Part shown: piece after piece, positions 6,280-33,336 of the stretch
Position numbering within the stretch: position 1 is the stretch's first letter
How the letters are laid out: the number at the start of each line of letters is the position of its first letter
DNA from: a virus
Length of the DNA: 42,421 bases
IMG/VR virus record: IMGVR_UViG_3300045965_000034
Span: 1 to 42,421 of that record
Direction: 5' to 3' (one strand)
The notes under the pieces: model-generated
Database searches by the model: none
What the model was told of the DNA's origin: nothing
The model's input: the letters and a program-made list of their open reading frames with translations, nothing else
Translations under genes and position numbers: made by a program

Positions 6280-6716
6280 CGATGGGCGTCCCGGCCTGGG
6301 CGGGCCGCTATATCGGCATCCCGTTCGTCGAGGAAGGATTCGACGAGGCCGGCTGCCACTGCTGGGGCCTGGTGCGGCTCGTGATGTGGCGCGAGCGCTC
6401 GATCGAGTTGCCGCGGCACGGTGACATTTCGGCCGGCGATCTTGCGGCGATCTTGCGCGCGACCGCAGAGGAAAAGGCGAGCGGGACATGGGTTCCGGTC
6501 GTGGGCAAGCCGCAGCCGTTCGACCTGCAATTGATGTGGGCGCATGCGCGCGTCAACGGCAAGCCGATCCGCGACGAAGGACACGTCGGGATCATGCTGA
6601 CCGAGACGATGATGCTGCACGTCGAGAAGGCGACCGACTCGTGCGCGGTGCCGCTCAAGGATGTGTCGCGCCGGCTGATCGCGGCCTATCGGCACCGGGA
6701 GTTGGTCGCGGGATGA
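6276..6716 (+). CDS. NlpC/P60 tail peptidase (gpK-like)
   Basis: Cys/His peptidoglycan endopeptidase domain, 146 residues from the GTG that overlaps the previous stop (an ATG at 6282 is the alternative). The catalytic cysteine sits in the motif CHCWGLVRLV (Cys29) and the catalytic histidine in EGHVGIML (His103). In lambda gpK and its relatives this domain sits at the tail tip, where it helps tip assembly and may open the cell wall at entry. It is flanked by the DUF1833-like and gpJ-like genes, the normal order. Confidence 0.85.
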   Translation: MTMGVPAWAGRYIGIPFVEEGFDEAGCHCWGLVRLVMWRERSIELPRHGDISAGDLAAILRATAEEKASGTWVPVVGKPQPFDLQLMWAHARVNGKPIRDEGHVGIMLTETMMLHVEKATDSCAVPLKDVSRRLIAAYRHRELVAG

Positions 6717-9514
6717 ACGCGCCGCTCAAGCGCAATCACGGCGGCGTGCCGGTCGTCTGGTCGGATCGCGCGCTCGGCACGCCGCGGATCGCGGTGTTCG
6801 CGCAAGGGGCGACCATCGCCGATCTGGTGCGCCAGGCGATCGGGCGTCACGGCCTGCCGGCGCATTTCGCCGATCGCGGTGCAGTCGCGATCAACGGCGA
6901 GCCGGTGCCGCGCGAGTGGTGGCTCTACGTGCGGCCGAAGTCGGTTGCGGGCCGCGACATCGTGGTGACGTTCTACTGGCCGCTCGCCGGCGGCGGCGGC
7001 CAGGGCGGCAAGAATCCGCTGGCCACGGTCGCGATGATCGGCGTGCTGGTGGCGGCGCTTGCCGCAGGCCCCTTCGTCGGACAGTTCGCATGGTTTGCGC
7101 TCGGCGGGCTGGGCGTTGCCCCCGCGCTGGTCGGCTCGCTGGCGTCGGCCGCGATCGGCGTCGGCGGGTCGCTTGCGGTCGCGGCGCTGACCGGCCCGCC
7201 GAAGCAGGAAGACCCGGCCGCGGCGCCCGGCATGCCGGTTTCCGAGCAGGCCGCCGCGCTCGCCGGCAACGTTCTCAACCCTGGCGGCGCGGTGCCGCGG
7301 GTGATCGGCACGCACATCGTCTATCCGCCGTTCGCGCAGGAGCCGATCGCCGAGATCATCGAAGCCGACCGGGTGCGGATCGAGGCGCTCTATGTGCTGA
7401 CCGGCGGCCACGACATCGACGACGTGCGCTTCGGCGGCATCGGGGCCGACTCGATGGAGAACGTCGAGGTCGAGACGTTCGAGGGTCAGACCTCGGCCGC
7501 GGCGGTGACGCTCGCCGATGTTCACGCCGCGATCACGCTCGTCGAGCGTCAGGGCAAGGCACATCCGATCGCCGTTGAAGTGTCGCACCACCAGATCGAT
7601 GGTGCCGACGGCGACTATTCGATCCTGCAGGACCAGGACGATCCCGAAGGCGACCTGCCGGTGTGGCACGCCGTCGTGACCGGCGTCGATCCAGATCAGT
7701 TCTGGATCAACCTGGAGTGGCCGGGCGGGATCAACTGGGCCGAGGGCGCGGGGTTTGCGTTCGCGGTCCCGATTCGCGTCCGCATGCGTCGCCGAGGCGA
7801 TGAAGACTGGATCTACATTCCGGAAATCCACGTCAACGCGACATCCACCAATGCGCTGCGGCGCTCGATCCGCCTGATATGGGATGAGCCGCCGGACGTG
7901 CTGCCGACGCCGCAGAGCGCGCGCGGTGTGCATGCAGCCTGGAAGCACGTGCCCGGCCAGGACACGACGCCTGCAACCGACGCCTTCGATGCGGACGCGC
8001 ATTTCTCTGCCGGTGCCGGCGATGATCTGCTGGACGCTGCGACCTACCTCACCAGCAAGGTGGAGAACGTCGAGCTCTATCCGCACTATGCCGGGATCTA
8101 TCTGCACGGCGAGACCTTCGAGAGCGACGGCGACCGCTGGGAGGTGCAGTTCAAGGTCGGCTGCGCGTATCCCAAGGTCTCGCTTAATTCGAGCTACGTC
8201 ATGGCGGCAAGCGACGTGGTGCCGAATCCGGCGACGTTCGATTTGTTCCACTATTTCAGTGTCGGCGGCATCCACTGTACGCCGGTCAAGATTACCGCCG
8301 TCACGGCGATGTGCCGGGTCGATCGCTGCTTCTCGATCTGGCACGAACACCCGATCCAGTCGGCCGACTTCGCGGCGATTGCGGTTCGCACCATCGGTCA
8401 GCAACTCGGCCAACTGTCCGCGGTCGCGGCCGGCTACGTGCAGGACTGGGACGGCTCGGCGTGGGCAACATGGGAAACGACGTCGAACCCGGCGCCGCAC
8501 TATCGCGAGGTCATGGCGGGCCGGCTCAACGCCGATCCGCTGCCGGCCGATCTCGTCGGCGATGACGTGCTGGTGGAATGGCGGCAGGAGTGCATCGACA
8601 ACGACTACACATGCGACGCCGTGGTCAACGGCCGCTCCGGCGACGATGTCCTCAACATGCTGGCGTTTTGCGGCTATGCCCGGCCACGTCAGTCCGAGAC
8701 CTGGGACGTGCTGATTGATCGCGACCGCTCGGGTGACGCCCCGACGCAGATATTCAGCTTTCGCAACATGCGGTCATTCAGGTTCGAGCGCACGTTTGCC
8801 AACCGCCCGACCGGCTTCCGCGTCAAGTTCGACGATGTCGCGGACGACTACAAGGAAACCACGGTCACGGTGCTCGATCCGCTCGATCCGGATGCCGACA
8901 CGTCGAGACTTGAGGAAATCGGCTACGAGGGCTTTGTCGACGAGGATAAGACCGTCGCGCGAGCGGAATTCGATCTCAAGCAATCCGATCTGCGCTTCGT
9001 GTTCTATTTCGGGGAATGCGGGATCGAGTCGATCGTCTGCCGGCGCGGCGATCTCGTCGGCGTGCAGCATGACGTGCTCTCGCGGCCTGTCGGGTCGGCG
9101 CGCATCAAGTCGGTGACGACATCGGGAGGCAACGTGACCGGCCTGGTGCTCGATGGCTCGATTCCGCTGGAAGCATCCGAGGCGTTCTATCTGTCGGACG
9201 GCGACGATGACTTCTACACCGAATCCGGCGGCGAGGACTTCTATCTCGACGGGGACGTCGGTGTTGCAATCCGGCTGCTCGATCAAACGCTGCTGACAAA
9301 GCAGATCGTCGCGAGCGGCGGCGAGGCTAAGACCGTGACGTTCTCGACGCCGTTTGCGATCCCTGGCGGCGGCGTGCTCGCCGCCGACTGCCTCCTGGTG
9401 TCCGGCGACCTCGCATCCGAGTACTCGCGGATGATCGTCTTCGACATCGCGCCGAAGAATGACCTTGAAGCCACACTGACCTTCGTCCCAGAAGCGCCCG
9501 AGCTATTCCAATGA
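6713..9514 (+). CDS. Tail tip / host specificity protein (gpJ-like)
   Basis: The ATG overlaps the stop of the previous gene (ATGA), giving 933 residues. The N-terminus has a ubiquitin-like domain (IAVFAQGATIADLVRQAIGRHG) and a hydrophobic glycine/alanine segment around residues 100-165 that combines gpI-like features with the tip protein. The central part has the baseplate-hub type sequence seen in gpJ-like proteins (VENVELYPHYAGIYLHGETF; SGDDVLNMLAFCGYARPRQSETWDVLID). The protein is the hub at the end of the tail and usually carries or positions the receptor-binding domain. Only 13 bases separate it from the fibre gene. Confidence 0.85.
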   Translation: MNAPLKRNHGGVPVVWSDRALGTPRIAVFAQGATIADLVRQAIGRHGLPAHFADRGAVAINGEPVPREWWLYVRPKSVAGRDIVVTFYWPLAGGGGQGGKNPLATVAMIGVLVAALAAGPFVGQFAWFALGGLGVAPALVGSLASAAIGVGGSLAVAALTGPPKQEDPAAAPGMPVSEQAAALAGNVLNPGGAVPRVIGTHIVYPPFAQEPIAEIIEADRVRIEALYVLTGGHDIDDVRFGGIGADSMENVEVETFEGQTSAAAVTLADVHAAITLVERQGKAHPIAVEVSHHQIDGADGDYSILQDQDDPEGDLPVWHAVVTGVDPDQFWINLEWPGGINWAEGAGFAFAVPIRVRMRRRGDEDWIYIPEIHVNATSTNALRRSIRLIWDEPPDVLPTPQSARGVHAAWKHVPGQDTTPATDAFDADAHFSAGAGDDLLDAATYLTSKVENVELYPHYAGIYLHGETFESDGDRWEVQFKVGCAYPKVSLNSSYVMAASDVVPNPATFDLFHYFSVGGIHCTPVKITAVTAMCRVDRCFSIWHEHPIQSADFAAIAVRTIGQQLGQLSAVAAGYVQDWDGSAWATWETTSNPAPHYREVMAGRLNADPLPADLVGDDVLVEWRQECIDNDYTCDAVVNGRSGDDVLNMLAFCGYARPRQSETWDVLIDRDRSGDAPTQIFSFRNMRSFRFERTFANRPTGFRVKFDDVADDYKETTVTVLDPLDPDADTSRLEEIGYEGFVDEDKTVARAEFDLKQSDLRFVFYFGECGIESIVCRRGDLVGVQHDVLSRPVGSARIKSVTTSGGNVTGLVLDGSIPLEASEAFYLSDGDDDFYTESGGEDFYLDGDVGVAIRLLDQTLLTKQIVASGGEAKTVTFSTPFAIPGGGVLAADCLLVSGDLASEYSRMIVFDIAPKNDLEATLTFVPEAPELFQ

Positions 9515-9527
9515 CAGAGGCGATACA

Positions 9528-12500
9528 ATGACGGCAGCCGTCCGCCAGACCCCGACTCCCGAGAACGGCTATCCGTCCGGCGTCGGCGAGAAAACGCACG
9601 CGCGCGCGGTCAACACCGAGGTCGCGGCGCTCTGGGGCTTGGGGCCGGAGAGGCTGATCGACGTCGGCGGGACTGCGAACGCGATCACGGCGACCTCCGA
9701 CACGGATGTCGTGGGTGCGGCGGTCTCTTACACCGAAGGCAAGATCTACGAGCTGGTGCCGGTCGCGACCAATACCGGCGCGGTTACGATCAACATCGAC
9801 TCGATTGGCGTGACCGACGTGCTGAACCTGTACGGCTTGCCGCTGGTCGAGGGGGACCTGGTCGCCGACCGCCTTTGCCTGTTGGTGCGAGCGGGCGTGT
9901 CGTTCCGGCTCATGGCCAACATGGACATTGAGCAGCCGGTCACGGTTCACACTCCTCCAGAGTTTGCGTCACCAACAAGACTGCGCGCTGGGCAGAAGGT
10001 GCTCCAGCCTAAGAACTTCGACATCGTGCCTGGAGTCCACACCTTTGAGCAGGCGCAGCTGAATAGCGCGGGCTGGAACGCTCTGTTTGAGGCGTTGACC
10101 GCCGATGGCACCGGTCGCATCGAGAACGGGGACAACGACGTATATACGATCATTGGTGACGAGAGTATCTTCAGCGGGTTCGCCGCGATGGGGATCGCGC
10201 AAGACTGCAACGGTGTTCGCTGGAATTTCAACGGTTCCAGGTTTCAGATTTTCACCGAAGATGCTTTTGATATCCTTCAGGTCATGTTTCACTGGCAGCG
10301 GTGTACTGACGTTCGGATCACTGGCTACAATCGTCAGTGCGAGATGCCATTTCCACTTGGCGTCGGTGGTGCATACGATCACTACATCGACGAGTGCGTT
10401 GACTTTGAAATTCAGGGACAGTCTCGCAGAAGCGTTGGCATTCTGTTTCTCAACCGTTGGCCAACGGGCGGCGTCCCAGAGCGAACACGCTCACGGAACA
10501 TCAAGTTTGATCTGTACGCTGAGGAAGTTGCTTACCCCATTCTGGCGGTCAACGACGGCGACAATCTTGTTGGAACATTGCGCGCCGAGACGTGTGGCCG
10601 CGCCGTAGCCTACGCCAACATTCGCAACTTCGACGTGGTGGCGAGAGCGCGCAACTGCCAGTTGAACGGCTGTGTGATCGGCCACTACACGAACGACGAT
10701 CCAGATGAGTCCGTGACGTCGGGCAAGGTCCACTACACAGACATCGATAGTGACGAGATCATCACGTCACCGGTCCACGTCAACTTCCAGCAGGGAGACA
10801 ACACGGGCATCCCGAAGAACGGCCGGTTTGATGTTGAGGTTGAAGTCTACATCAAGGTGCCGGCGGCAGGCTCGGGTGCGATTTTTAACATCGCCCAATA
10901 TGGCGGCACTAACTCTCTTCCGGTGTTTGACGACGTTGGTGGCGTCCAGAACTTGAAATTCAGCGGCACCATTCTGGGCGACTTGGGCGACTTGGGGTAC
11001 CTGGGACAGGAGGCCTACGGGTGGGGTCCGCTATCCTCGCTCGATGTCAAGTTGACTGACATTAATGCTCCTGATCTCACAGGTGGTCCTGTTGGACTTC
11101 AGCTTGGTCCCTACGGGCGTTTCACGCTGGGCAATATCTATGCCCCTAACATGCTTTTGACATTTGAGAGCACTCGTCCGACGCTTGACGTTGTCGGTCA
11201 GGTTACCATGGCAAATTACGAAGCGTCGGTGGCCGCCTCGAAGATGGTGGAGATTTCCGACGGAGCCGTGAACGATCTGGCTCTGCGTTTCATCGAGGAC
11301 GCCAACACCGGGCTGTTCCGCATCGGAGCCGACAACATCGGTATGGCGATTGGAGGTGCGAAGTCGTTTGAACTTTCGACTGCCAGCACGGCGGTGGGGC
11401 ACAATTCGCTTCCCGTCACGTCGGTCGGAACCTTCAACACCGCGTTCGGCCTGTTCACTCTCGCGGCCAACACGTCGGGTACGGGCAACACCGCAGTCGG
11501 GTACAACGCTCTCGCGCTGAACACGACGGGCAATGGTAACGTCGCAGTCGGTGGCACCACGCTCGTTTCGAACACGACGGGTGAGAGCAATACTGGATGT
11601 GGGTCGGGAGCACTGGCAAACAACATTGGCGGCGACAGCAATGCCGCGTTCGGTCACTCCGCCCTGGCAGCAAACACGGAGGGAGTCGCCAACACGGGAC
11701 TTGGTACGGGTGCTCTCGGAGCAAATGTTACGGGCTCCAACAACACTGCCGTTGGTCATCAGGCGCTGATACTGAACACGGTTGACGGTAACACCGCTGT
11801 CGGCGGCAATGCTCTAGACGTGAGCACAACCGGCACCGGGCTCGTCGCTGTGGGAAAGGACGCTCTCGGAGCCAACACGACAGGCTCCAACAACACCGCT
11901 GTCGGCGCTGGAGCATCGGACGCTGTCACTACTGGGACGGGGAACACGGCAGTCGGCAAGGACGCGCTGGGAGCTAACTTGATCGGCACGAACAACACCG
12001 CTGTCGGCCTCAACGCTCTGCTGCTCACTACCGGCTCCAACTGCACCGCAGTCGGCAAGGACGCTCTCGCGACCAACACGACGGGCGTCAATACCGCTGT
12101 CGGTGCTCTGGCGATGGCCGCCAACACGACGGGCACGAGTAACACCGCGTTCGGCGGAGGCGCGCTCCAGTCCAACACTGTCGGCATCAGCAACGTCGCC
12201 TTCGGCCACGGCGCGATGAACATCAACACCACCGGAGGCACCAACGTCGCGGTCGGGGCTGGTGCTCTCGGATCGAGCACGACGGCTTCGGGCAACACGG
12301 TAGTCGGCTACAACGGGATGGTGCTGAACACGACTGGAGCGGCCAACGTCGCTGTCGGGTTGCAAGCTCTCGACGCAAACACGACTGGAAACAACAACGT
12401 CGCTGTCGGTCACAGCGCTCTGGGCGCGAACACGACTGCCGCCGACAACGTTGCGGTCGGTCACTCCGCGCTCCTGGTCAACGTCACTGGTACGCAGAAT

Positions 12501-14810
12501 ACTGCGGTCGGAACGAGTGCTCTCGCGGCCAACACTGCGAGCAGCAACACGTCGGTTGGATATCAGGCGATGCTGGCCACTACGAGCGGCGCCAACAACG
12601 TCGCTGTCGGCGCCAGTGCTCTAGGCGCCAACACCATCGGGGCCGGCAACGTAGCTGTCGGCAAGGCCGCTCTCGGAGCGAATACGGAAGGGAATAACAA
12701 CACTGCTGTTGGCTTGTCTGCTCTTGCCGCCAACACCACGGCAGTCGGCAACGTAGCTGTCGGGCAGAACGCGCTCGCCCTGAACACGATTGGCGATGAC
12801 AACGTTGCCGTTGGTCAGAGCGCGCTCGCGTCTAACGTGTCCGGCACCGACAACACCGCAGTCGGCAAGAACGCGCTCACCCTGAATACGGGCAATAACA
12901 ATACAGCGGTCGGCTCCGGCGCGCTCGACGCCAACACGTCGGGCGCGGGGAACACTGCGATCGGCCAGAACTCTCTCGGAGCGAACAGTACCGGCAACAA
13001 CAATACCGCCGTCGGCATCACCGCGCTTCGGGACAACAACGGCAGTGGCAATTCCGCGTACGGGTATCAGGCTCTGCTGGTTAATTCGAGTGGATCTAAT
13101 AACGTTTCTATCGGCGCAGCCTCGATGACTGCCAACACGACGGGCAACAGCAACACGGCGATTGGAGTGTCGGCTCTGACGGCAAACACCGAAGGAGCCA
13201 ACAACACCGCCGTTGGTCTGAGCGCTCTTGGTTCGAACACTACCGCCGGCAACAATACGGCAGTCGGCTATCAAGCGATGCTCGCTAACCAGACGGGCAC
13301 GCAGAACACCGCTGTCGGCCTCCAGGCTCTCGACGCAAACGTGTCCAACGTGCAGAACGTCGCTGTTGGCCAGAGCGCGCTCGGCGCGGCCACCGCCAAC
13401 AACAACACGGCGGTCGGCTTCAACTCGATGATCCTCAACACGACGGGAGCAGAGAATACCGCGATTGGACATGCCACTCTCGACGCCAACCTGACGGGCT
13501 CCAACAACGTCGCAGTAGGCAAGGACGCATTGGGCCTGAACACTGCCAGTGACAACACGGCGGTGGGCCATAGCGCGCTGGACGCGAACACGTCGGGTAC
13601 TGGAAATACTGCTGTTGGTAAGAACGCGCTGGGGGCGATTGCTACTACAAACGACAGCACTGCTGTCGGCTACCACGCACTGCTGGCCAATACCGCCGCC
13701 AACAATACGGCAGTCGGTTCCTTGGCGCTTGATGCAAACACGTCAGGAACTGGAAACACCGCAGTCGGTAAAGATGCTCTTGGTGCGATCACCACCACGA
13801 ATGACAGCACTGCGGTCGGGTACCAGGCGCTCCTCGTTAACACGGCGGCCAACAACACTGCGGTTGGTTCTTCCGCGCTCGACGCCAATACGTCAGGTAC
13901 CGGTAATACCGCCGTTGGTAAGGACGCTCTTGGGGCGATCACTACTGCGAACGATAGTACTGCCGTGGGTTATCAGGCCCTGTTGCTCAACACTGCTGCG
14001 AACAACACTGCAGTTGGCTCCGGGGCTGCAGATGCCACCACCACAGGTGCCGGTAACGTGGCGGTGGGCAAGGACGCGCTGGGGACCAGCACAGAAGGTG
14101 ATAACTGCGTTGCTCTGGGGCTCAACGCTCTCCTGGCCAATACGACGGCAGACAATAACGTTGCTGTCGGCTCCAGCGCGCTAGTGGCAGTCAATACCGG
14201 CGGCAACAACGTCGCCATCGGCTTCCAGGCTGGCAACACGCTCACGACGGGCACCGGCAACACCATCGTCGGTCATGACTCCGACACCTCGGCTAACAAC
14301 TCCGTAGACCAGATCGTGCTGGGCCGGGGTGTCACAGGTGTCGCCAACGCCGCAATCACGTTGGGTAACGCGACACGTGCCATCACGTGTAATTATGACA
14401 CGGATCAAACGTGGGACGCTCCCTCCGACGAGCGCATGAAGAACGTTCGGGGCAACTCCTCGCTGGGCCTCGCGTTCATCTGCTCGCTTCAGCCGATGGA
14501 GTACACGTTCAAGCCCCACTCGGAGTGGCCGAAGGAATGGGGCGTGGCTCCCGATGCGCCTCAGGTCGATCCCGAGCACGTAATGCTTGGCCTGCTCGCA
14601 CAGGAGGTCAAGGCGTCGCTGGAAGCGCAGGGCAACCCGACGTTCCACGGATGGGATGTCCAGAAAAACGGCCAGCAGATGATCGGTGAGTCTGCTTTCG
14701 TTTACCCGCTGATCAACGCGGTGAAGGAGCTCGCCGACCGCGTCAAGGAGCTGGAAGCGGAAGTACGGCGGATGCAGGGGATGCAGATCATGCCCGTGTC
14801 GAAGAACTGA
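9528..14810 (+). CDS. Giant tail fibre with YadA-like repeats and S74 chaperone
   Basis: Residues 1-140 form the probable virion anchor. Residues 150-600 look like a beta-helix/lectin-type region, with more A/T-rich codons than its neighbours. A fibre motif (RFIEDANTGLFRIGADNIGM) leads into about 57 repeats of roughly 17 residues, consensus N-T/V-AVG-x-x-AL-x-x-NTTG-x-x-N, from residue 621 to 1578. The C-terminal 128 residues are an intramolecular chaperone of the peptidase S74 family, starting at SDERMKN (Ser1633, Lys1638), with a final coiled coil (VKELADRVKELEAEVRRM). The chaperone trimerises the fibre and cuts itself off. At 1760 residues it is the largest gene in the genome. Confidence 0.9.
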   Translation: MTAAVRQTPTPENGYPSGVGEKTHARAVNTEVAALWGLGPERLIDVGGTANAITATSDTDVVGAAVSYTEGKIYELVPVATNTGAVTINIDSIGVTDVLNLYGLPLVEGDLVADRLCLLVRAGVSFRLMANMDIEQPVTVHTPPEFASPTRLRAGQKVLQPKNFDIVPGVHTFEQAQLNSAGWNALFEALTADGTGRIENGDNDVYTIIGDESIFSGFAAMGIAQDCNGVRWNFNGSRFQIFTEDAFDILQVMFHWQRCTDVRITGYNRQCEMPFPLGVGGAYDHYIDECVDFEIQGQSRRSVGILFLNRWPTGGVPERTRSRNIKFDLYAEEVAYPILAVNDGDNLVGTLRAETCGRAVAYANIRNFDVVARARNCQLNGCVIGHYTNDDPDESVTSGKVHYTDIDSDEIITSPVHVNFQQGDNTGIPKNGRFDVEVEVYIKVPAAGSGAIFNIAQYGGTNSLPVFDDVGGVQNLKFSGTILGDLGDLGYLGQEAYGWGPLSSLDVKLTDINAPDLTGGPVGLQLGPYGRFTLGNIYAPNMLLTFESTRPTLDVVGQVTMANYEASVAASKMVEISDGAVNDLALRFIEDANTGLFRIGADNIGMAIGGAKSFELSTASTAVGHNSLPVTSVGTFNTAFGLFTLAANTSGTGNTAVGYNALALNTTGNGNVAVGGTTLVSNTTGESNTGCGSGALANNIGGDSNAAFGHSALAANTEGVANTGLGTGALGANVTGSNNTAVGHQALILNTVDGNTAVGGNALDVSTTGTGLVAVGKDALGANTTGSNNTAVGAGASDAVTTGTGNTAVGKDALGANLIGTNNTAVGLNALLLTTGSNCTAVGKDALATNTTGVNTAVGALAMAANTTGTSNTAFGGGALQSNTVGISNVAFGHGAMNINTTGGTNVAVGAGALGSSTTASGNTVVGYNGMVLNTTGAANVAVGLQALDANTTGNNNVAVGHSALGANTTAADNVAVGHSALLVNVTGTQNTAVGTSALAANTASSNTSVGYQAMLATTSGANNVAVGASALGANTIGAGNVAVGKAALGANTEGNNNTAVGLSALAANTTAVGNVAVGQNALALNTIGDDNVAVGQSALASNVSGTDNTAVGKNALTLNTGNNNTAVGSGALDANTSGAGNTAIGQNSLGANSTGNNNTAVGITALRDNNGSGNSAYGYQALLVNSSGSNNVSIGAASMTANTTGNSNTAIGVSALTANTEGANNTAVGLSALGSNTTAGNNTAVGYQAMLANQTGTQNTAVGLQALDANVSNVQNVAVGQSALGAATANNNTAVGFNSMILNTTGAENTAIGHATLDANLTGSNNVAVGKDALGLNTASDNTAVGHSALDANTSGTGNTAVGKNALGAIATTNDSTAVGYHALLANTAANNTAVGSLALDANTSGTGNTAVGKDALGAITTTNDSTAVGYQALLVNTAANNTAVGSSALDANTSGTGNTAVGKDALGAITTANDSTAVGYQALLLNTAANNTAVGSGAADATTTGAGNVAVGKDALGTSTEGDNCVALGLNALLANTTADNNVAVGSSALVAVNTGGNNVAIGFQAGNTLTTGTGNTIVGHDSDTSANNSVDQIVLGRGVTGVANAAITLGNATRAITCNYDTDQTWDAPSDERMKNVRGNSSLGLAFICSLQPMEYTFKPHSEWPKEWGVAPDAPQVDPEHVMLGLLAQEVKASLEAQGNPTFHGWDVQKNGQQMIGESAFVYPLINAVKELADRVKELEAEVRRMQGMQIMPVSKN
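11388..14261 (+). repeat. About 57 tandem ~51-bp coding repeats
   Basis: These are the DNA repeats encoding the YadA-like fibre shaft. Unit length is 48-54 bp. Amino acid sequence is strongly conserved while codons vary freely, so few long exact DNA repeats exist. Near the end, three copies of a 150-bp higher-order unit (three repeats each) occur in register at about 13558, 13708 and 13858, which indicates recent duplication there. It is coding DNA, not a CRISPR or origin iteron array. Confidence 0.9.
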
Positions 14811-16139: not shown

Positions 16140-16621
16140 TATGGGCAATCCTTGCCGCGTTGTTCGGCCTGCTGCTGTTCTATGCCGTCATCGGTCGCGC
16201 CTGGCTGAAGCGGCAGGAGTGGACGCAAGGGTTCTTTGCGTTCGTCGAGCCGATCGAGCGCCGGTTGTTTCTGAAGTCCGAAACGATCCTCGCCGGTCGG
16301 CTGCTCTGGCTCGTCAGCGGGATCGTCACCGCCTACGACTTCGTGGCGCTCTTTGCCTCGCAGCTCGACTGGACGCCGGTCACGTCGCGGCTGCTCGCCG
16401 GCGTGCCGGAGGACATGCGTCCGCTGATCGTGTCGGCTGCCATCAGCCTGATCGGCCTCCTGATCAACTGGCTGCGAAAGCGCACCACGAAGCCGCTGGA
16501 GGTGGTGGCGGCTCCTGACAAGCCGCCGCCGACCGTGGCGTCGGCGGTGCAGCGCGTCGAGATGGCGAACGCCAACGCGGTTGCTGCGATCGAGAGCGCC
16601 AAGGCCAAGGGGCAGGTCTGA
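16136..16621 (+). CDS. Multi-TM membrane protein of the lysis region
   Basis: 161 residues from a GTG that overlaps the previous stop (GTGA), with AGGAG 8-9 bases upstream. Three hydrophobic segments are visible: [18 protein letters not shown] at the N-terminus, [19 protein letters not shown] in the middle and [17 protein letters not shown]. The C-terminus is hydrophilic and alanine/lysine-rich. It could be a second holin or antiholin beside the 3-TM holin that overlaps it downstream. No named family recognised. Confidence 0.7.
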
Positions 16622-17322
16622 TGGATTGGGTTGCAGTCGGCAAGCTGATTGCGCCGCTCGCCCCGGTCGCCGGCTCGATCCTCGGCGGGCTCATCCCGGT
16701 CCCCGGCGGCTCGGTGATCGGCCAGAAGTTCGGCGAAGCCATCGCCCGCGCGTTCGGGGTCGATCCGACGCCCAAGGCTGTGAGCGACGCCGTTGCCGCG
16801 GCCGGAGAGGAAACCGCCCGCGCCAAGATCAACGCCGCACTGGAGCAGTGCCGCGCGGAAATCTCAGGGTTCGTCGAGCTCGAGCGGCTGCACACGCAGG
16901 CCGTCATCGCGTCCCTGACGCAGACCAACGAGACGATGCGCGTCGAGGTCCGGCCGGAAAACCGGCATTGGTTCTACACCGGCTGGCGGCCCACGGCGGG
17001 CTGGCTGTTCAATCTGTTCGCGACGGTGTTCGGCGTGCTGCTCGCCTGGGCGAGCGTGGTCGCGATCCTGGGCAACGCAAAGCCGCTCGATGTCCTGCAC
17101 AACGCATGGCCGCTCTATGCGGCGTTTCTCGGCGCACTCGCGCTGATCGTCGGCGTGTACATGAGCGGGCGGTCGTTCGAAAAGGGCAAGGCGATCGAGC
17201 AGGGCGCGCCCGTGGTGATCAAGCCTCCGGTGATCATCCCGGAGGTCAAGCCGCCTCCGGCGACGAAGCCGGCGGCACCGCCGGCAAGGCCGCCCGGAAA
17301 GACTCACGACGCCGTGAACTGA
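16621..17322 (+). CDS. 3-TM phage holin
   Basis: 233 residues, ATG overlapping the previous stop. The N-terminal part has a glycine/proline hydrophobic segment (APVAGSILGGLIPVPGG) and a helical region; the core shows HWFYTGWRPTAGWLFNLF, a signature I associate with the 3TM holin superfamily also found in gene transfer agents, followed by two transmembrane helices (VFGVLLAWASVVAILG; LYAAFLGALALIVGVYM). The C-terminal tail is proline/lysine-rich. Holins assemble in the inner membrane and time lysis. Confidence 0.75.
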   Translation: MDWVAVGKLIAPLAPVAGSILGGLIPVPGGSVIGQKFGEAIARAFGVDPTPKAVSDAVAAAGEETARAKINAALEQCRAEISGFVELERLHTQAVIASLTQTNETMRVEVRPENRHWFYTGWRPTAGWLFNLFATVFGVLLAWASVVAILGNAKPLDVLHNAWPLYAAFLGALALIVGVYMSGRSFEKGKAIEQGAPVVIKPPVIIPEVKPPPATKPAAPPARPPGKTHDAVN

Positions 17323-19247: not shown

Positions 19248-19446
19248 AATCCCGCCAAAACTTCGCCAATGAATAAGGGGGTTAACGGGGTTGAAATCCC
19301 AATGACTAACGGGTGAAAACCCGCATTCGGCCGCGATTGCTCCGATCCGCTTCCCGTTCGGGACGAAGGGGTCGCGAGTTCAAATCTCGCCACTCCGACC
19401 AGTAAAACAGGGGTTGCCCGCAAATCCCGCCAATACGTCCGCCAAA
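19247..19446. other. attP: Phage attachment site attP (tRNA-Pro type)
   Basis: Bases 19355-19401 form the 3' half of a tRNA: anticodon loop TTCGGGA (anticodon CGG, proline), T stem-loop GCGAG-TTCAAAT-CTCGC, acceptor strand CACTCCG, discriminator A and CCA. The 5' half is absent, as expected for an attP that restores a host tRNA-Pro gene upon integration. Two exact 12-bp direct repeats, AAATCCCGCCAA, flank the core at 19247 and 19422 and resemble each other further (then TTCGCCAA / TCCGCCAA); a related GAAATCCCAATGA lies at 19293. These look like integrase arm sites. The integrase gene starts its 3' end 10 bases away. No gene in this stretch. Confidence 0.85.
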
Positions 19447-19455
19447 ATAACGGCC

Positions 19456-20643
19456 CTACGTTCGCTTTTTGCCCCCGGCCCGCCCTCTGTGGCGGGCTTT
19501 CCGTTTTAACGCATGGGCGGGCTTCCTGCGGGCTTTGGGCGTCCCGCCCGGCCGGTCGAAAACCGACCATGCCGCCCTCTGGTGGTCCGGGTGGTTGTGC
19601 CCGTAGACCCGGATCAGGGTTTCGACCGACATGCCGAGATAGCCCGCCGCCTCCCATGGCGGGGCACCGCGCTGCATCATCCATGTCGCCGCGGTGTGGC
19701 GCAGCGCGTGCGGCGTCACGTCGGCATCGAGCGCGGCGTCCCTCACGGCTTGCCGGAACGCCTTCGCCATCCGGCCGATCGGCTCCCCGTTCCATTCGAC
19801 CGCGTAGCGTTGGCCGGATTTCTTCCAGCGGCGAAGGTGGGCGAGCAGCCGCCGCGGCAGCACGATCGCCGGCTGGCGCTTCTTGGTCTGCCGGCGGTGC
19901 GCACGGGGATGGAAGACGCCGCGCTCGAGGTCGATATGCCCGCGGCCTGCTGTCGGCTGCAGGGCTGCTTCCACGATCGCACCCGCCCGCCGGCCGGCGT
20001 AAAGCGCGACCAGGATGAAGCGGGCGACATGCCGGCGGGTGTAGCGGGTCTTCGTCTTGCCGCTCTGCTCGTCCTTCGCCCGCCATGCCGCGAGCACCAG
20101 GCGCGCGGCCTCGGACCGTGTGAGCCAGCGCTCCCGCGCCGGCCGCCGCGGCGGCAGCGGCACGCTGATCACCACCCGGATGTGCCCCTCGTTGCGGTAG
20201 TGGTTGATCGCGGCTCGAAGATCCTCGAGCTCCCGGCGTGCCGCGGCATCCGTCGAGCGCTGCGCCACGTAGGCGCGGCAGAGCGCGCCGTTGATCTGCG
20301 ACAGCCGCTTGTCGCCGAAGAACCTCAACAGGATCGAGATGCGCGAGAGCGTAGCCGACGGGTCGGCGTGTCGTGGGGCTACGTCGCGGGCGTAGACCGC
20401 GAGCGCGTCCGCGACCGGGACGCGAACCGGATCACGTTCGCCTTCGGCCGCGCGGGTGACGTGCTTTTCCGAGATGTAGCGCGCGAGTTCTCTCTCAGCT
20501 CCTGCACGATCGTCTGACAGGCATCGCGTGCTCTGCTGATGTCGTCCGTCGATAATGAGCCAGACGGCGGGATGAGTTCGTCGCGCGCCCGCTCGGCGTT
20601 CTTCCCTGAGCCAGAGTCTCGGGCCTTGCCCGCGAGGCGGCAT
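19456..20643 (-). CDS. int: Tyrosine recombinase (integrase)
   Basis: 395 residues. Catalytic residues are visible: Arg in LYAGRRAGAI (218/219), HALRHT (His312, Arg315) and Tyr347 in RVYGHNHPD. The N-terminal arm-binding part includes PRLWLREE and the SAM-like core-binding region (residues about 70-160). It inserts the phage at the tRNA-Pro attB through the adjacent attP. The first 265 bp overlap the excisionase-like gene in another frame; the start is kept here because recognisable integrase sequence (WLIIDGRHQQSTRCLSDD) begins within the overlap. Confidence 0.9.
   Translation of the reverse strand: MPPRGQGPRLWLREERRAGARRTHPAVWLIIDGRHQQSTRCLSDDRAGAERELARYISEKHVTRAAEGERDPVRVPVADALAVYARDVAPRHADPSATLSRISILLRFFGDKRLSQINGALCRAYVAQRSTDAAARRELEDLRAAINHYRNEGHIRVVISVPLPPRRPARERWLTRSEAARLVLAAWRAKDEQSGKTKTRYTRRHVARFILVALYAGRRAGAIVEAALQPTAGRGHIDLERGVFHPRAHRRQTKKRQPAIVLPRRLLAHLRRWKKSGQRYAVEWNGEPIGRMAKAFRQAVRDAALDADVTPHALRHTAATWMMQRGAPPWEAAGYLGMSVETLIRVYGHNHPDHQRAAWSVFDRPGGTPKARRKPAHALKRKARHRGRAGGKKRT
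19478..19507 (+). terminator. Rho-independent terminator of the late operon (inside int)
   Basis: GCCCGCC, 6-base loop, GGCGGGC, then TTTCCGTTTT on the + strand. It lies within the last codons of the leftward integrase gene and faces the rightward late transcript, so it ends late transcription just past attP. Confidence 0.75.
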
Positions 20644-29164: not shown

Positions 29165-29553
29165 TCGCGCTCTGGTATCTCGCCACGCCATACACGAATT
29201 ACGAGGCCGGCATCGAGGCGGCGTTTCGTGATGCGGCCGTGCTCGCGTCGAGGCTGCTGCGCGCGGGCTACCGCGTCTATTCCCCGATCGTGCACACGCA
29301 CCCGCTCGCAATCCACGGCGGCCTCGATCCTCTCGACCACTCGATCTGGCTCCCGTTCGACGAAGCGATGATGGAGCGCTGCGACCGATTGATCGTCGCG
29401 CACATGAAGGGCTGGCAGGCGTCGCGCGGCATCGCCCACGAGATCGAATTCTTCGAGCGGGCCGGCAAGCCGATCTGGGATCTCGATCCGGTGACGCTGC
29501 AGCTCGCCAAACGGCGCGGACCGATCACGCGCGAGGCTGTGACGGCCGCATGA
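29161..29553 (+). CDS. DUF1937-like, nucleoside deoxyribosyltransferase-fold protein
   Basis: 130 residues from the ATG that overlaps the previous stop. Pattern MIALWYLATPYTNYEAGIEAAF...SPIVHTHPLA...WLPFDEAMMERCDRLIVAHMKGWQASRGIAHEI fits DUF1937, a relative of nucleoside 2-deoxyribosyltransferases. The family may cleave or exchange the base of nucleosides, or act on signalling nucleotides; no substrate can be read from the sequence. Confidence 0.75.
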   Translation: MIALWYLATPYTNYEAGIEAAFRDAAVLASRLLRAGYRVYSPIVHTHPLAIHGGLDPLDHSIWLPFDEAMMERCDRLIVAHMKGWQASRGIAHEIEFFERAGKPIWDLDPVTLQLAKRRGPITREAVTAA

Positions 29554-30731
29554 CCACTCTCGCCCAATACGACGCAGCTCGAGCAGCCCTCGCGCAAGCG
29601 ACGCGCATCGATGAAGTGCTGCCGCTGTTGGACGAGTTCGAGCTCGCCAAGGTCCGCGCCCGTCAGATCAAGGACCAGGCGCTGTTGGCCGACGCGACCG
29701 AATTCCAGTTGCGGGCCGAGCGCAGGCTTGGCCAGGTCATCGAGGCAGCCAAGTCGGCCGGGCTGTTTCGGCAGGGCCGGCAGCCTGAAAAAAGTACCGG
29801 GCAGGAACCTTTTCGACCGACGCTCGCCGAAGCCGGGATCGACAAGAAACTGTCAGCCCGCGCCCAGGGCCGGGCATCCATTGCCGAGCAAGCCTTCGAA
29901 CTGATGGTGGCTCAGGCCCGCGAGCGGATTGCGGCGGGCGGGGCGAAGATCATCGACGACGCCAACCGGGCCGCCGACAAGCAGGCCGCACGCGCCGAGC
30001 GAGAAGCCGCCCTTGGCGCAAAGCAGGCCGCGCTCCCGAAAGCCCGCTATGGCGTCATCGTGGCGGATCCCGAATGGCGCTTCGAACCATGGTCACGGTC
30101 GACCGGCATGGATCGATCAGCCGACAACCACTATCCGACCTCCTGTCTCGACGTGATCAAGGCCCGCGACGTGCCGTCGATCGCAGCCGACGACTGCGTG
30201 CTGTTCCTGTGGGCGACCGTGCCGATGCTGCCGCACGCGCTCGCCGTGATGGAAGCCTGGGGCTTCGCCTACGTCTCGCACTACGTCTGGGACAAGCAGA
30301 AAGCGGGCACCGGCTACTGGAACCGCAACGTGCATGAGTTGCTGCTGATCGGCACCAGGGGAAAGATTCCGGCACCGGCGCCCGGCACTCAGAAGAACTC
30401 GATCATCGAGGCGCCGGCGACGAAGCACAGCGCGAAGCCGGAACTGTTCCTCGAGATGATCGAGGGCTACTACCCGAGCCTGCCCAAGATCGAATTGAAC
30501 CGCCGCGGCCCGCCGCGCAAGGGCTGGGCTGCGTGGGGCAACCAGGCCGAACCCGGCGAGTTCGACGCGACCACGGGCGAGCTCCATCCCCATCCCCGTG
30601 AGACTGCGACGCCGGAAAACACACCGGCAGTCGCGCATGAACCAATCGATCTCACAATCCCGGATTTCCTCCGTCGTGTTCCAGTTCCCCCGCGTGCTTC
30701 CATCTCGGATGACGCGGGGAACACCGGATGA
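29550..30731 (+). CDS. MT-A70 family DNA N6-adenine methyltransferase
   Basis: 393 residues. N-terminal helical region (residues 1-140, including TLAEAGIDKKLSARAQ) precedes the MT-A70 catalytic domain with VIVADPEWRF; Asp173-Pro-Glu-Trp176 is a variant of the DPPW motif. Later motifs are LFLWATVPMLPHALAVMEAWGF, VWDKQKAGTGYWNRNVHELLLIGTRG and KIELNRRGPPRKGW. It probably methylates phage DNA to evade restriction or to mark timing. There is no partner nuclease nearby, so it is an orphan. The Pro-to-Glu change in the catalytic motif is notable. Confidence 0.85.
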   Translation: MTTLAQYDAARAALAQATRIDEVLPLLDEFELAKVRARQIKDQALLADATEFQLRAERRLGQVIEAAKSAGLFRQGRQPEKSTGQEPFRPTLAEAGIDKKLSARAQGRASIAEQAFELMVAQARERIAAGGAKIIDDANRAADKQAARAEREAALGAKQAALPKARYGVIVADPEWRFEPWSRSTGMDRSADNHYPTSCLDVIKARDVPSIAADDCVLFLWATVPMLPHALAVMEAWGFAYVSHYVWDKQKAGTGYWNRNVHELLLIGTRGKIPAPAPGTQKNSIIEAPATKHSAKPELFLEMIEGYYPSLPKIELNRRGPPRKGWAAWGNQAEPGEFDATTGELHPHPRETATPENTPAVAHEPIDLTIPDFLRRVPVPPRASISDDAGNTG

Positions 30732-31634: not shown

Positions 31635-32554
31635 TCATCCGCCGCAAGCACACCGCCAACTTCGCCACCATTAGCAATGCGCTGGCGAATGACGATCGCC
31701 TGCAGGCGGACGAGATCGGCGTGCTGTACTACCTGCTGTCGCGTCCGCACGACTGGGAGGTGAGGCGACCGCAGCTGGCCAAGCGCTTCGGCTATGGCCG
31801 CGAGGCGATCAAGCGGGTGATGTGGAACACGATGCGCTGCGGCTGGGTGGTGGCGCAAAAGACGCAATTGACCGATGGGCGTTTCTTCACGGTCTACGAG
31901 GTCCGGGACGAGCCGGGGCCTGAGCTTTCGGACGAACAGATTCGCGCCGCTTTGTCGCTGGGGTCCAGCGAGGCGGGCGAGGGCGATACCGAGGGCGACC
32001 GCACCGGCGAGCCAACGACCGACCCGCCGGCAACCGGCGACCCACCTACGGGTCAGCCAGCGACGGCTCAGCCAGCGACGGGTAACCCGTATGTGGCTCC
32101 TATAGAAGGAGTCACTAAAAACGGATTCACTAAGGACGGAATCCACCAAAGCGGATGGGCGTTTTCGGACGTTCGGGCGAAGTGGCCCGCCGACCACGTG
32201 GTGAGCTCGTTCGCCGCCGAGCAGGCATTCGCGGCTCTCAACGAGACGATGCGGGCGGCCTGCCATGACGGGATAGCGCCCTACCTCGCCGAGTGCGCCG
32301 CCAAGGCCCGCAAGGTCTGCGACCTGACAACGTTCATCCGGGAGCGTCGCTGGGAGAAGTTCCAGGTGATCAAGCCGTCAACCGAAATGTGCTCGATCAA
32401 GGCGTACTCCCCTGAATTCTACCGATGGCGGGAATACCGGCTTGCTATCGGCGACCACGACAGCGTGAAGGCGATGGACATCATGGCAAAACTCGGCCGG
32501 GAGATCACCGTGCCGTCACGCTGGCCGCCGCCGCTCCCGGCTATCGCGTCGTAA
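31631..32554 (+). CDS. Replication-type winged-helix protein, 307 aa
   Basis: The N-terminal domain (IRRKHTANFATISNALANDDRLQADEIGVLYYLLSRPHDWEVRRPQLAKRFGYGREAIKRVMWNTMRCGWV, residues 3-75) is the helix-turn-helix found in phage replication initiators. A threonine/proline-rich linker (residues 120-155) leads to a helical C-terminal domain. As the only candidate replication gene in the genome it may bind the origin and recruit host replication proteins. The linker region is a natural site to look for an internal origin. Confidence 0.6.
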   Translation: MIIRRKHTANFATISNALANDDRLQADEIGVLYYLLSRPHDWEVRRPQLAKRFGYGREAIKRVMWNTMRCGWVVAQKTQLTDGRFFTVYEVRDEPGPELSDEQIRAALSLGSSEAGEGDTEGDRTGEPTTDPPATGDPPTGQPATAQPATGNPYVAPIEGVTKNGFTKDGIHQSGWAFSDVRAKWPADHVVSSFAAEQAFAALNETMRAACHDGIAPYLAECAAKARKVCDLTTFIRERRWEKFQVIKPSTEMCSIKAYSPEFYRWREYRLAIGDHDSVKAMDIMAKLGREITVPSRWPPPLPAIAS

Positions 32555-32604
32555 ACCGATTTCCGCGTGTCCTTCGGCCCTTTGGAATCTGGAGAGTGCA
32601 AACG

Positions 32605-33336
32605 ATGCACGGCAACATGGCCGAGGTCTATTCCGAGTTCTGGCGGATGCATGAGTTCGCCGAGAGGATCGAGGCCGAGATCACGGCTGCGGCTCGGTTG
32701 CAGGCAAGCCTCGAGGCCGAGATCACCGAAGGCGCAACCGCGAACTGGTATCTCGTGCATGCGCGCCCAGGCGAGGACGAGCGGGCGTTGCGCTGGCTTG
32801 CGCGACGGCGCTTCGGCTGCTTCCGACCCATGACGCAACGGCGTCAGGGCGAGGCGCGGGTGCAGGGTTGGCAGGCGGCCTTTCCGGGTTGGCTGTTCGT
32901 GTTCGCGTGGAACATCCAAGATCGCGAAGGACGCTGGATCGTCCCCAAGGAGCGGATCACCAACGTCCCCGGCGTTTCCGGCATGCTGTGCGACCCCGCA
33001 AGCGGCAAGCCGGTGCCGATTCCTGACGTGTTCGTGCAGGAGGTCCGCGCCTGGAGCTGGGACTACAACGACCATGCGCCTCGGGCGTGGCGGCGTGGCC
33101 AGGCGCAGGCCCGCAGCAACACGGCGATCAGGTCGAAGGCCCGCAAGCCGACCAAGCGGGAGCGCACCATGCTCGACGCCCTCAAGGGCAGGCTCAAGGA
33201 TTGCGGCCTCTGGACGCAATCCACACTGGACAGCGCGTGTGGTCTTGCCCCCAACCAGAGAATCGCCCTATACGAAACTCTCCTGCATGCACGGCCGTCT
33301 GGGGCGGGTTGCGCCACTCTCAACGGGGCGCGGTAA
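32605..33336 (+). CDS. NusG-like transcription antitermination protein
   Basis: 243 residues from the ATG behind GGAGAG. Residues 50-150 follow the NusG N-terminal domain: NWYLVHARPGEDERALRWLARRRFGCFRP, then FPGWLFVFAWNIQD...WIVPKERITNVPGVSGML and PVPIPDVFVQEVRA. The C-terminal 80 residues are basic and helical and do not look like a KOW domain. NusG paralogues bind RNA polymerase and make it read through terminators. As the last gene before two hairpins and the late operon, it is the likely late-gene activator. Confidence 0.8.
   Translation: MHGNMAEVYSEFWRMHEFAERIEAEITAAARLQASLEAEITEGATANWYLVHARPGEDERALRWLARRRFGCFRPMTQRRQGEARVQGWQAAFPGWLFVFAWNIQDREGRWIVPKERITNVPGVSGMLCDPASGKPVPIPDVFVQEVRAWSWDYNDHAPRAWRRGQAQARSNTAIRSKARKPTKRERTMLDALKGRLKDCGLWTQSTLDSACGLAPNQRIALYETLLHARPSGAGCATLNGAR

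Follow-up and report, generated by a model that had tools for sequence, protein, structure and literature searches.

A phage tail fibre with a 57-unit repeat shaft, probably YadA-like in at least its last units, an S74 C-terminus and saturated synonymous sites

The fibre gene and its phage

The sequence analyzed here, IMGVR_UViG_3300045965_000034 (42,421 bases, referred to as the window), is a complete IMG/VR virus record. Its tail module, which holds a tape measure gene and the fibre gene under study, lies at the opposite end of the record from the genes for terminase, portal, and head protease. Directly upstream of the fibre gene, across a gap of 13 nt, is a lambda J-like gene. The fibre protein matched the profiles phrog_6002, phrog_23837, and phrog_4636 (virion structural or tail spike, with E-values from 1e-136 to 1e-151), and these profiles matched across the repeat array in 7 to 15 stretches. 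On the basis of the J-like neighbour, the tail-spike PHROGs, and the presence of the repeat in 71 deposited phage records, many of them annotated as tail fibre or tail spike, we take the protein to be a tail fibre or tailspike, made by a temperate phage whose tail tip is J-like. The following features were identified:

6488..9514 (+): lambda J-like central tail fibre/tail-tip gene (phrog_31 'central tail fiber J', E 4.5e-40)
9528-14810 (+): tail fibre/tailspike gene, 1760 aa, one intact open reading frame
9666..9917 (+): N-terminal domain of virion-attachment type, residues 47-130 (weak match to phrog_4900 'tail protein', E 3e-4)
9978..11384 (+): body, residues about 151-619, with no detectable relatives
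11385-14258 (+): fibre shaft of 57 tandem units, residues 620-1577 (glycine-anchored count)
13554..14003 (+): three tandem 50-aa (three-unit) blocks (TRF, block comparison)
14259..14423 (+): last coils and neck ahead of the chaperone, residues 1578-1632 (sequence; beta strands in the terminal model)
14424..14807 (+): Peptidase_S74/intramolecular chaperone, residues 1633-1760 (PF13884; fold and profile of the MyRF ICA; S1633/K1638)

Residues 47-130 may serve in virion attachment, and the N-terminus would join the fibre to the tail tip, to be followed by an unrelated body (residues about 150-619). Searches with residues about 151-619 gave no match in Pfam, NCBIfam, the PDB, or phage tblastn, and no orthologues of this N-terminal body were detected in phages or viral contigs; on visual inspection, the sequence pattern of these residues would fit the parallel beta-helix body of a tailspike.

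At the other end of the protein, PF13884 (Peptidase_S74) scored 25.2 bits for the C-terminal fragment against a cut-off of 22, and 21.6 for the whole protein. The same region matched the MyRF ICA (7dc3) by structure (Foldseek probability 1.0, E 5e-3) and by profile (hmmsearch E 2.5e-9), and the S, D, R, and K of S74 are invariant in a 14-sequence alignment (A3). S1633 and K1638 form a Ser/Lys pair with a spacing of +5, equal to that of the dyads of endoNF (S911/K916) and MyRF (S587/K592), and a Pro precedes the Ser in MyRF as it does S1633 here (PMC8326128). The fibre has in common with endoNF, phi29 gp12, and MyRF the C-terminal S74 fold and the Ser/Lys pair, but those proteins have a short triple beta-helix stalk upstream where the window fibre has a long repeat array. 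Self-cleavage is predicted before S1633 with the participation of K1638, and the predicted mature fibre comprises residues 1-1632. The S74 domain would nucleate trimerisation and then cut itself off before Ser1633.

The phage carries an integrase gene (19456-20643, minus strand), just beyond which lies a tRNA 3' half (GGGGTCGCGAGTTCAAATCTCGCCACTCCGACCA, window 19357-19402) that is probably the attP core. The integrase together with this tRNA-like attachment core marks the phage as temperate, probably integrating at a tRNA gene. Among terminases of named phages the closest belongs to Sinorhizobium phage phi2LM21, and the relatives of the J gene come mostly from Rhodobacter, Rhodovulum, and rhizobial phages; an alphaproteobacterial host is suggested by these matches. 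The phage is a mosaic. Its head-module relatives (L249-L300) have terminases 55-100% identical to its own, and matches to the fibre and J genes were absent in the 27 records of such relatives that were searched, several of which are fragments and for which the search had no positive control; no close relatives were found when viral contigs were searched with the J gene. The identical terminase lies at positions 791-2725 of L249, a 7-kb IMG/VR contig. Elsewhere in the window we observed a phage-coded NusG-domain protein (32425-33336; PF02357, E 4e-9), possibly a dedicated antiterminator, an adenine methyltransferase of the MT-A70 type (29550-30731; PF05063, E 5e-19), and a weak match to the three-TM holin of gene transfer agents (16621-17322; PF11351, 24.7 bits versus a cut-off of 24.8). 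A diversity-generating retroelement was ruled out, since no reverse transcriptase was found in the record.

Repeat units and the fold of the shaft

Anchored on an invariant glycine, the array is an unbroken run of 57 units, of which 46 measure 17 aa and 11 measure 16 aa, and the longest chain of units in 1000 residue-shuffled arrays was at most 4. A first-pass annotation had counted about 57 units at 11388-14261, which was right to within a codon (11385-14258 as measured). The unit consensus is N-[TV]-A-V-G-x-x-A-L-x-A-N-T-T-G-x-x. That annotation also considered the repeat tightly conserved in protein, which is the case for the strongest positions (G5 in 57/57 units, A3 in 52/57, N1 in 50/57, and A8 in 49/57) but not for the unit as a whole, as mean pairwise identity over 13 positions is only 54% for protein, with 57% for DNA. 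TRF reported mainly a 150-nt period with three copies (13574-14021), plus a few shorter and weaker arrays.

The two single-chain models of the shaft disagree. The terminal model covers residues 1493-1760, i.e., the last five units, neck, and S74, was built from a 14-row alignment, and reached a pLDDT of 80 (76-92 in the repeats). It superposed on the left-handed beta-rolls of BoaA (3s6l; Z 13.0, 2.5 Å, 113 aligned), BpaC (7o23; Z 12.8), and YadA (1p9h; Z 12.2, 2.4 Å, 111 aligned), as well as on the ryegrass ice-binding protein (3ult; Z 15.0) and on phi29 gp12 (Z 13.5, but at 6.5 Å), and its Foldseek E-values to YadA heads were not significant. The mid-array model, which comprises eight units and was built from a 71-row alignment, reached a pLDDT of 73.5 (59-62 in the other four models, which disagree). 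The best superpositions of this model were with right-handed beta-helices (Z about 9-10.6), a fold that is also seen in viral models in BFVD.

On the mid-array model rests a rather doubtful alternative, namely that the shaft is a right-handed parallel beta-solenoid with one chain per helix, as in tailspikes, and not a YadA-like roll. Although the eight-unit model aligned to AlgE4 and the Sf6 and CBA120 tailspikes (Z 9-10.6, rmsd 2.1-2.7 Å) and similar monomer models of the repeat exist in BFVD (e.g., TM 0.93 to D6PIN1), the five mid-array models are of low confidence and differ from one another, and obligate trimers modelled as isolated chains often come out badly. Moreover, the model of better quality, in which the units keep their native C-terminal neighbours, matches left-handed rolls, and the array runs straight into a 14-residue step (IVLG...ITLG, within residues 1578-1632) of the kind found in YadA heads. 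We favour the terminal, left-handed model, because it retains the native surroundings of the units and has the stronger support, and consider that at least the last units probably form a YadA-like left-handed beta-roll, as in the heads of YadA, BoaA, BpaC, UspA1, and AtaA. The earlier description of the array as YadA-like agrees with the superposition of the last five units, but not with the right-handed mid-array model, nor was it borne out by profiles. YadA_head (PF05658) gave no Pfam match at E<=10, an hmmsearch of the repeat profile against the PDB revealed no link to YadA_head, and hhalign against a Variovorax YadA-head alignment aligned a single column, with shuffled controls scoring the same, so that the hhalign comparison carries no information either way.

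YadA-like heads are built of layers of about 14 residues, or 15 in UspA1, versus 17 or 16 in the array, where a 14-residue step occurs only after the last unit. They share with the window repeat an invariant Gly and the register G-x-N-S-V-A-I-G, but differ from it in layer size, in the lack of a profile match, and in having a membrane anchor where the window fibre has S74. In a by-eye alignment, the YadA motif GxNSVAIGAxSxAx (PMC9543794) can be matched position by position to G15-x-x-N-T-A-V-G-x-x-A-L-x-A of the unit once N12-T13-T14 is treated as an insertion, and insertions in such rolls lie at the junction of two layers, after position 14 of the first and before position 1 of the second (PMC9543794). 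This suggests that the 17-residue repeat may be a YadA-like roll with a 3-residue insertion. The 57 beta-solenoid turns of residues 620-1577 would then be stacked into a rod, and this rod is most likely a trimeric, left-handed beta-roll resembling the YadA head, with 17 residues per turn in place of 14. Among YadA-like heads, that of BpaC also has triplet expansion, with 42 layers and a measured rise of 4.8 Å per layer (PMC9543794). With the same rise, 57 stacked beta-roll layers would give a shaft of about 27 nm. By the standards of tail fibres this is not long, contrary to the expectation of a very long flexible fibre.

Codon usage across the array

The array had been described as a fibre shaft on a phage with codon-randomised DNA, highly variable at synonymous positions, and both the 57 units and the codon statistics agree with that description. 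Identical residues at the 13 aligned positions of the units are encoded by the same codon 41% of the time; random draws give 39% +/- 2% with the codon usage of the array itself and 46% +/- 2% with the usage of the other genes of the phage. The longest exact DNA repeat within the 2.9 kb of the array was 18 nt (19.6 +/- 2.6 in synonymous-codon shuffles). Exact repeats of at least 20 nt were absent, but not significantly so, even with a column-specific null, and shared 12-mers and 15-mers were commoner than in synonymous shuffles. GC3 was 0.71 in the array versus 0.80-0.87 in the terminase, tape measure, and J genes, and the less GC-biased codon usage was also observed in the N-terminal part of the fibre gene. 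Since the same-codon rate and the longest repeat are at random expectation, the synonymous sites of the array are saturated and not diversified beyond chance.

The same holds across the family. We sampled 185 array ORFs from viral and bacterial contigs, 167 of which had enough comparable codons. Neighbouring units in these 167 arrays shared codons 0.014 less often than random draws (an excess of -0.014), and 82% of the arrays lay within 0.1 of the random-draw same-codon rate. Measured across the family, codon sharing between neighbouring units does not exceed chance, and synonymous randomisation is the ordinary state of the 17-residue repeat. Several relatives contain recent block copies with much higher codon identity, which indicates that duplication is ongoing in the repeat family. 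The units of the window array would be old; purifying selection would have held their protein sequence as drift saturated the synonymous sites, so that the DNA copies differ. As a whole, we assign a probability of about 0.8 to the reading of a tail fibre or tailspike with a YadA-like shaft of 57 units, a self-cleaving S74 end, and neutrally saturated codons.

That codon scrambling was itself selected, with identical DNA copies lost by recombination and synonymous divergence favoured, appears improbable. Exact DNA repeats of no more than 18 nt across 57 units would fit such selection, as would the blocks described below, but the same-codon rate and the length of the longest repeat are at, and not below, their random values, 12- and 15-mers are shared above expectation, long exact repeats are not depleted under the column-specific null, and neutral saturation is family-wide. 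The suggestion that synonymous variability limits recombination-driven loss is compatible with these data, but no excess over neutral saturation was detected by same-codon rate, exact-repeat length, or the column-specific null, and the related array of the IMG/VR phage L248 retains exact repeats of 68 nt.

The only point of some interest in this respect is that blocks nearly identical in protein have synonymous sites that are fully randomised. The three-copy 50-residue block (13554-14003) is the one visible block duplication in the window. Its copies are identical at 44-47/50 residues (88-94%) and 72-75% identical in DNA, while fourfold sites of the shared residues are only 31-37% identical, i.e., random, and 27-33 of the 44-47 shared codons are changed. 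The residues kept identical between the blocks include some at positions that vary freely in the rest of the array, and drift under structural constraint does not easily explain fixed protein with random codons. Similar blocks occur in L248 (4419-8531), with 75/80 aa identical and a same-codon rate of 0.44, beside its long exact repeats. Tandem blocks in the two arrays are thus 85-94% identical in protein with synonymous sites at or near random. It is very unlikely, however, that selection for synonymous divergence stabilises such arrays, with duplicated blocks surviving only if their codons are quickly randomised; equally unlikely is the corollary that blocks thereby stay about 90% identical in protein with no shared DNA stretch above 18 nt. 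The array is well suited to asking whether selection for synonymous diversity acts in natural repeat proteins.

Spread of the repeat and its relatives

Besides phages, the repeat was found in a few plasmids, in many bacteria, and in proteins of giant viruses (e.g., the adhesin of Bodo saltans virus). Among array ORFs with their C-terminus inside the locus, S74 was present in 58/79 viral and 43/67 bacterial ones. A YadA-like region with S74 was already reported in 2014 on a pelagiphage tail fibre (PMC3909814), where the YadA-like (3S6L) region is C-terminal; the window fibre shares this combination. That fibre differs in its T7-like N-terminus, and no array of comparable length was noted in it. 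The architecture, which had been deemed unusual, is accordingly of a known and widespread kind, to which the window adds a long and well-delimited example. A text search of the literature with the peptide NTAVG gave only unrelated matches among those listed.

The same kind of repeat with an S74 C-terminus, likewise annotated as tail fibre or tail spike, occurs in Pelagibacter phages HTVC111P and HTVC112P, Methylophilales phage Venkman (gp55), SPO1 (gp2.52), and P-SSM2, but these fibres have fewer units (12-13 of the same pattern in HTVC112P and Venkman) and different N-terminal parts. The nearest S74 and neck, 60-64% identical to those of the window fibre, were those of the IMG/VR phages L248, L246, and L247, whose terminases are unrelated to that of the window phage. 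L248 resembles the window array in its 61 units and synonymous randomisation, but its units are of 16-19 aa and arranged in 88-aa blocks. At 57 units the window array is therefore long but no record.

The first-pass annotation had further proposed the transfer of a bacterial adhesin architecture to a phage. The capture of a whole trimeric autotransporter adhesin gene is barely credible and, in such a form, refuted by the S74 C-terminus and the missing YadA anchor, which was absent from the fibre protein in Pfam searches; the YadA-like fold of the last units would be in keeping with it, but the unmatched YadA_head profile and the tail-gene context are not. In the P-SSM2 tail spike (L006, 5437-8721), a plastocyanin/azurin-like Copper-bind domain (PF00127, above cut-off) was observed beside the repeats.
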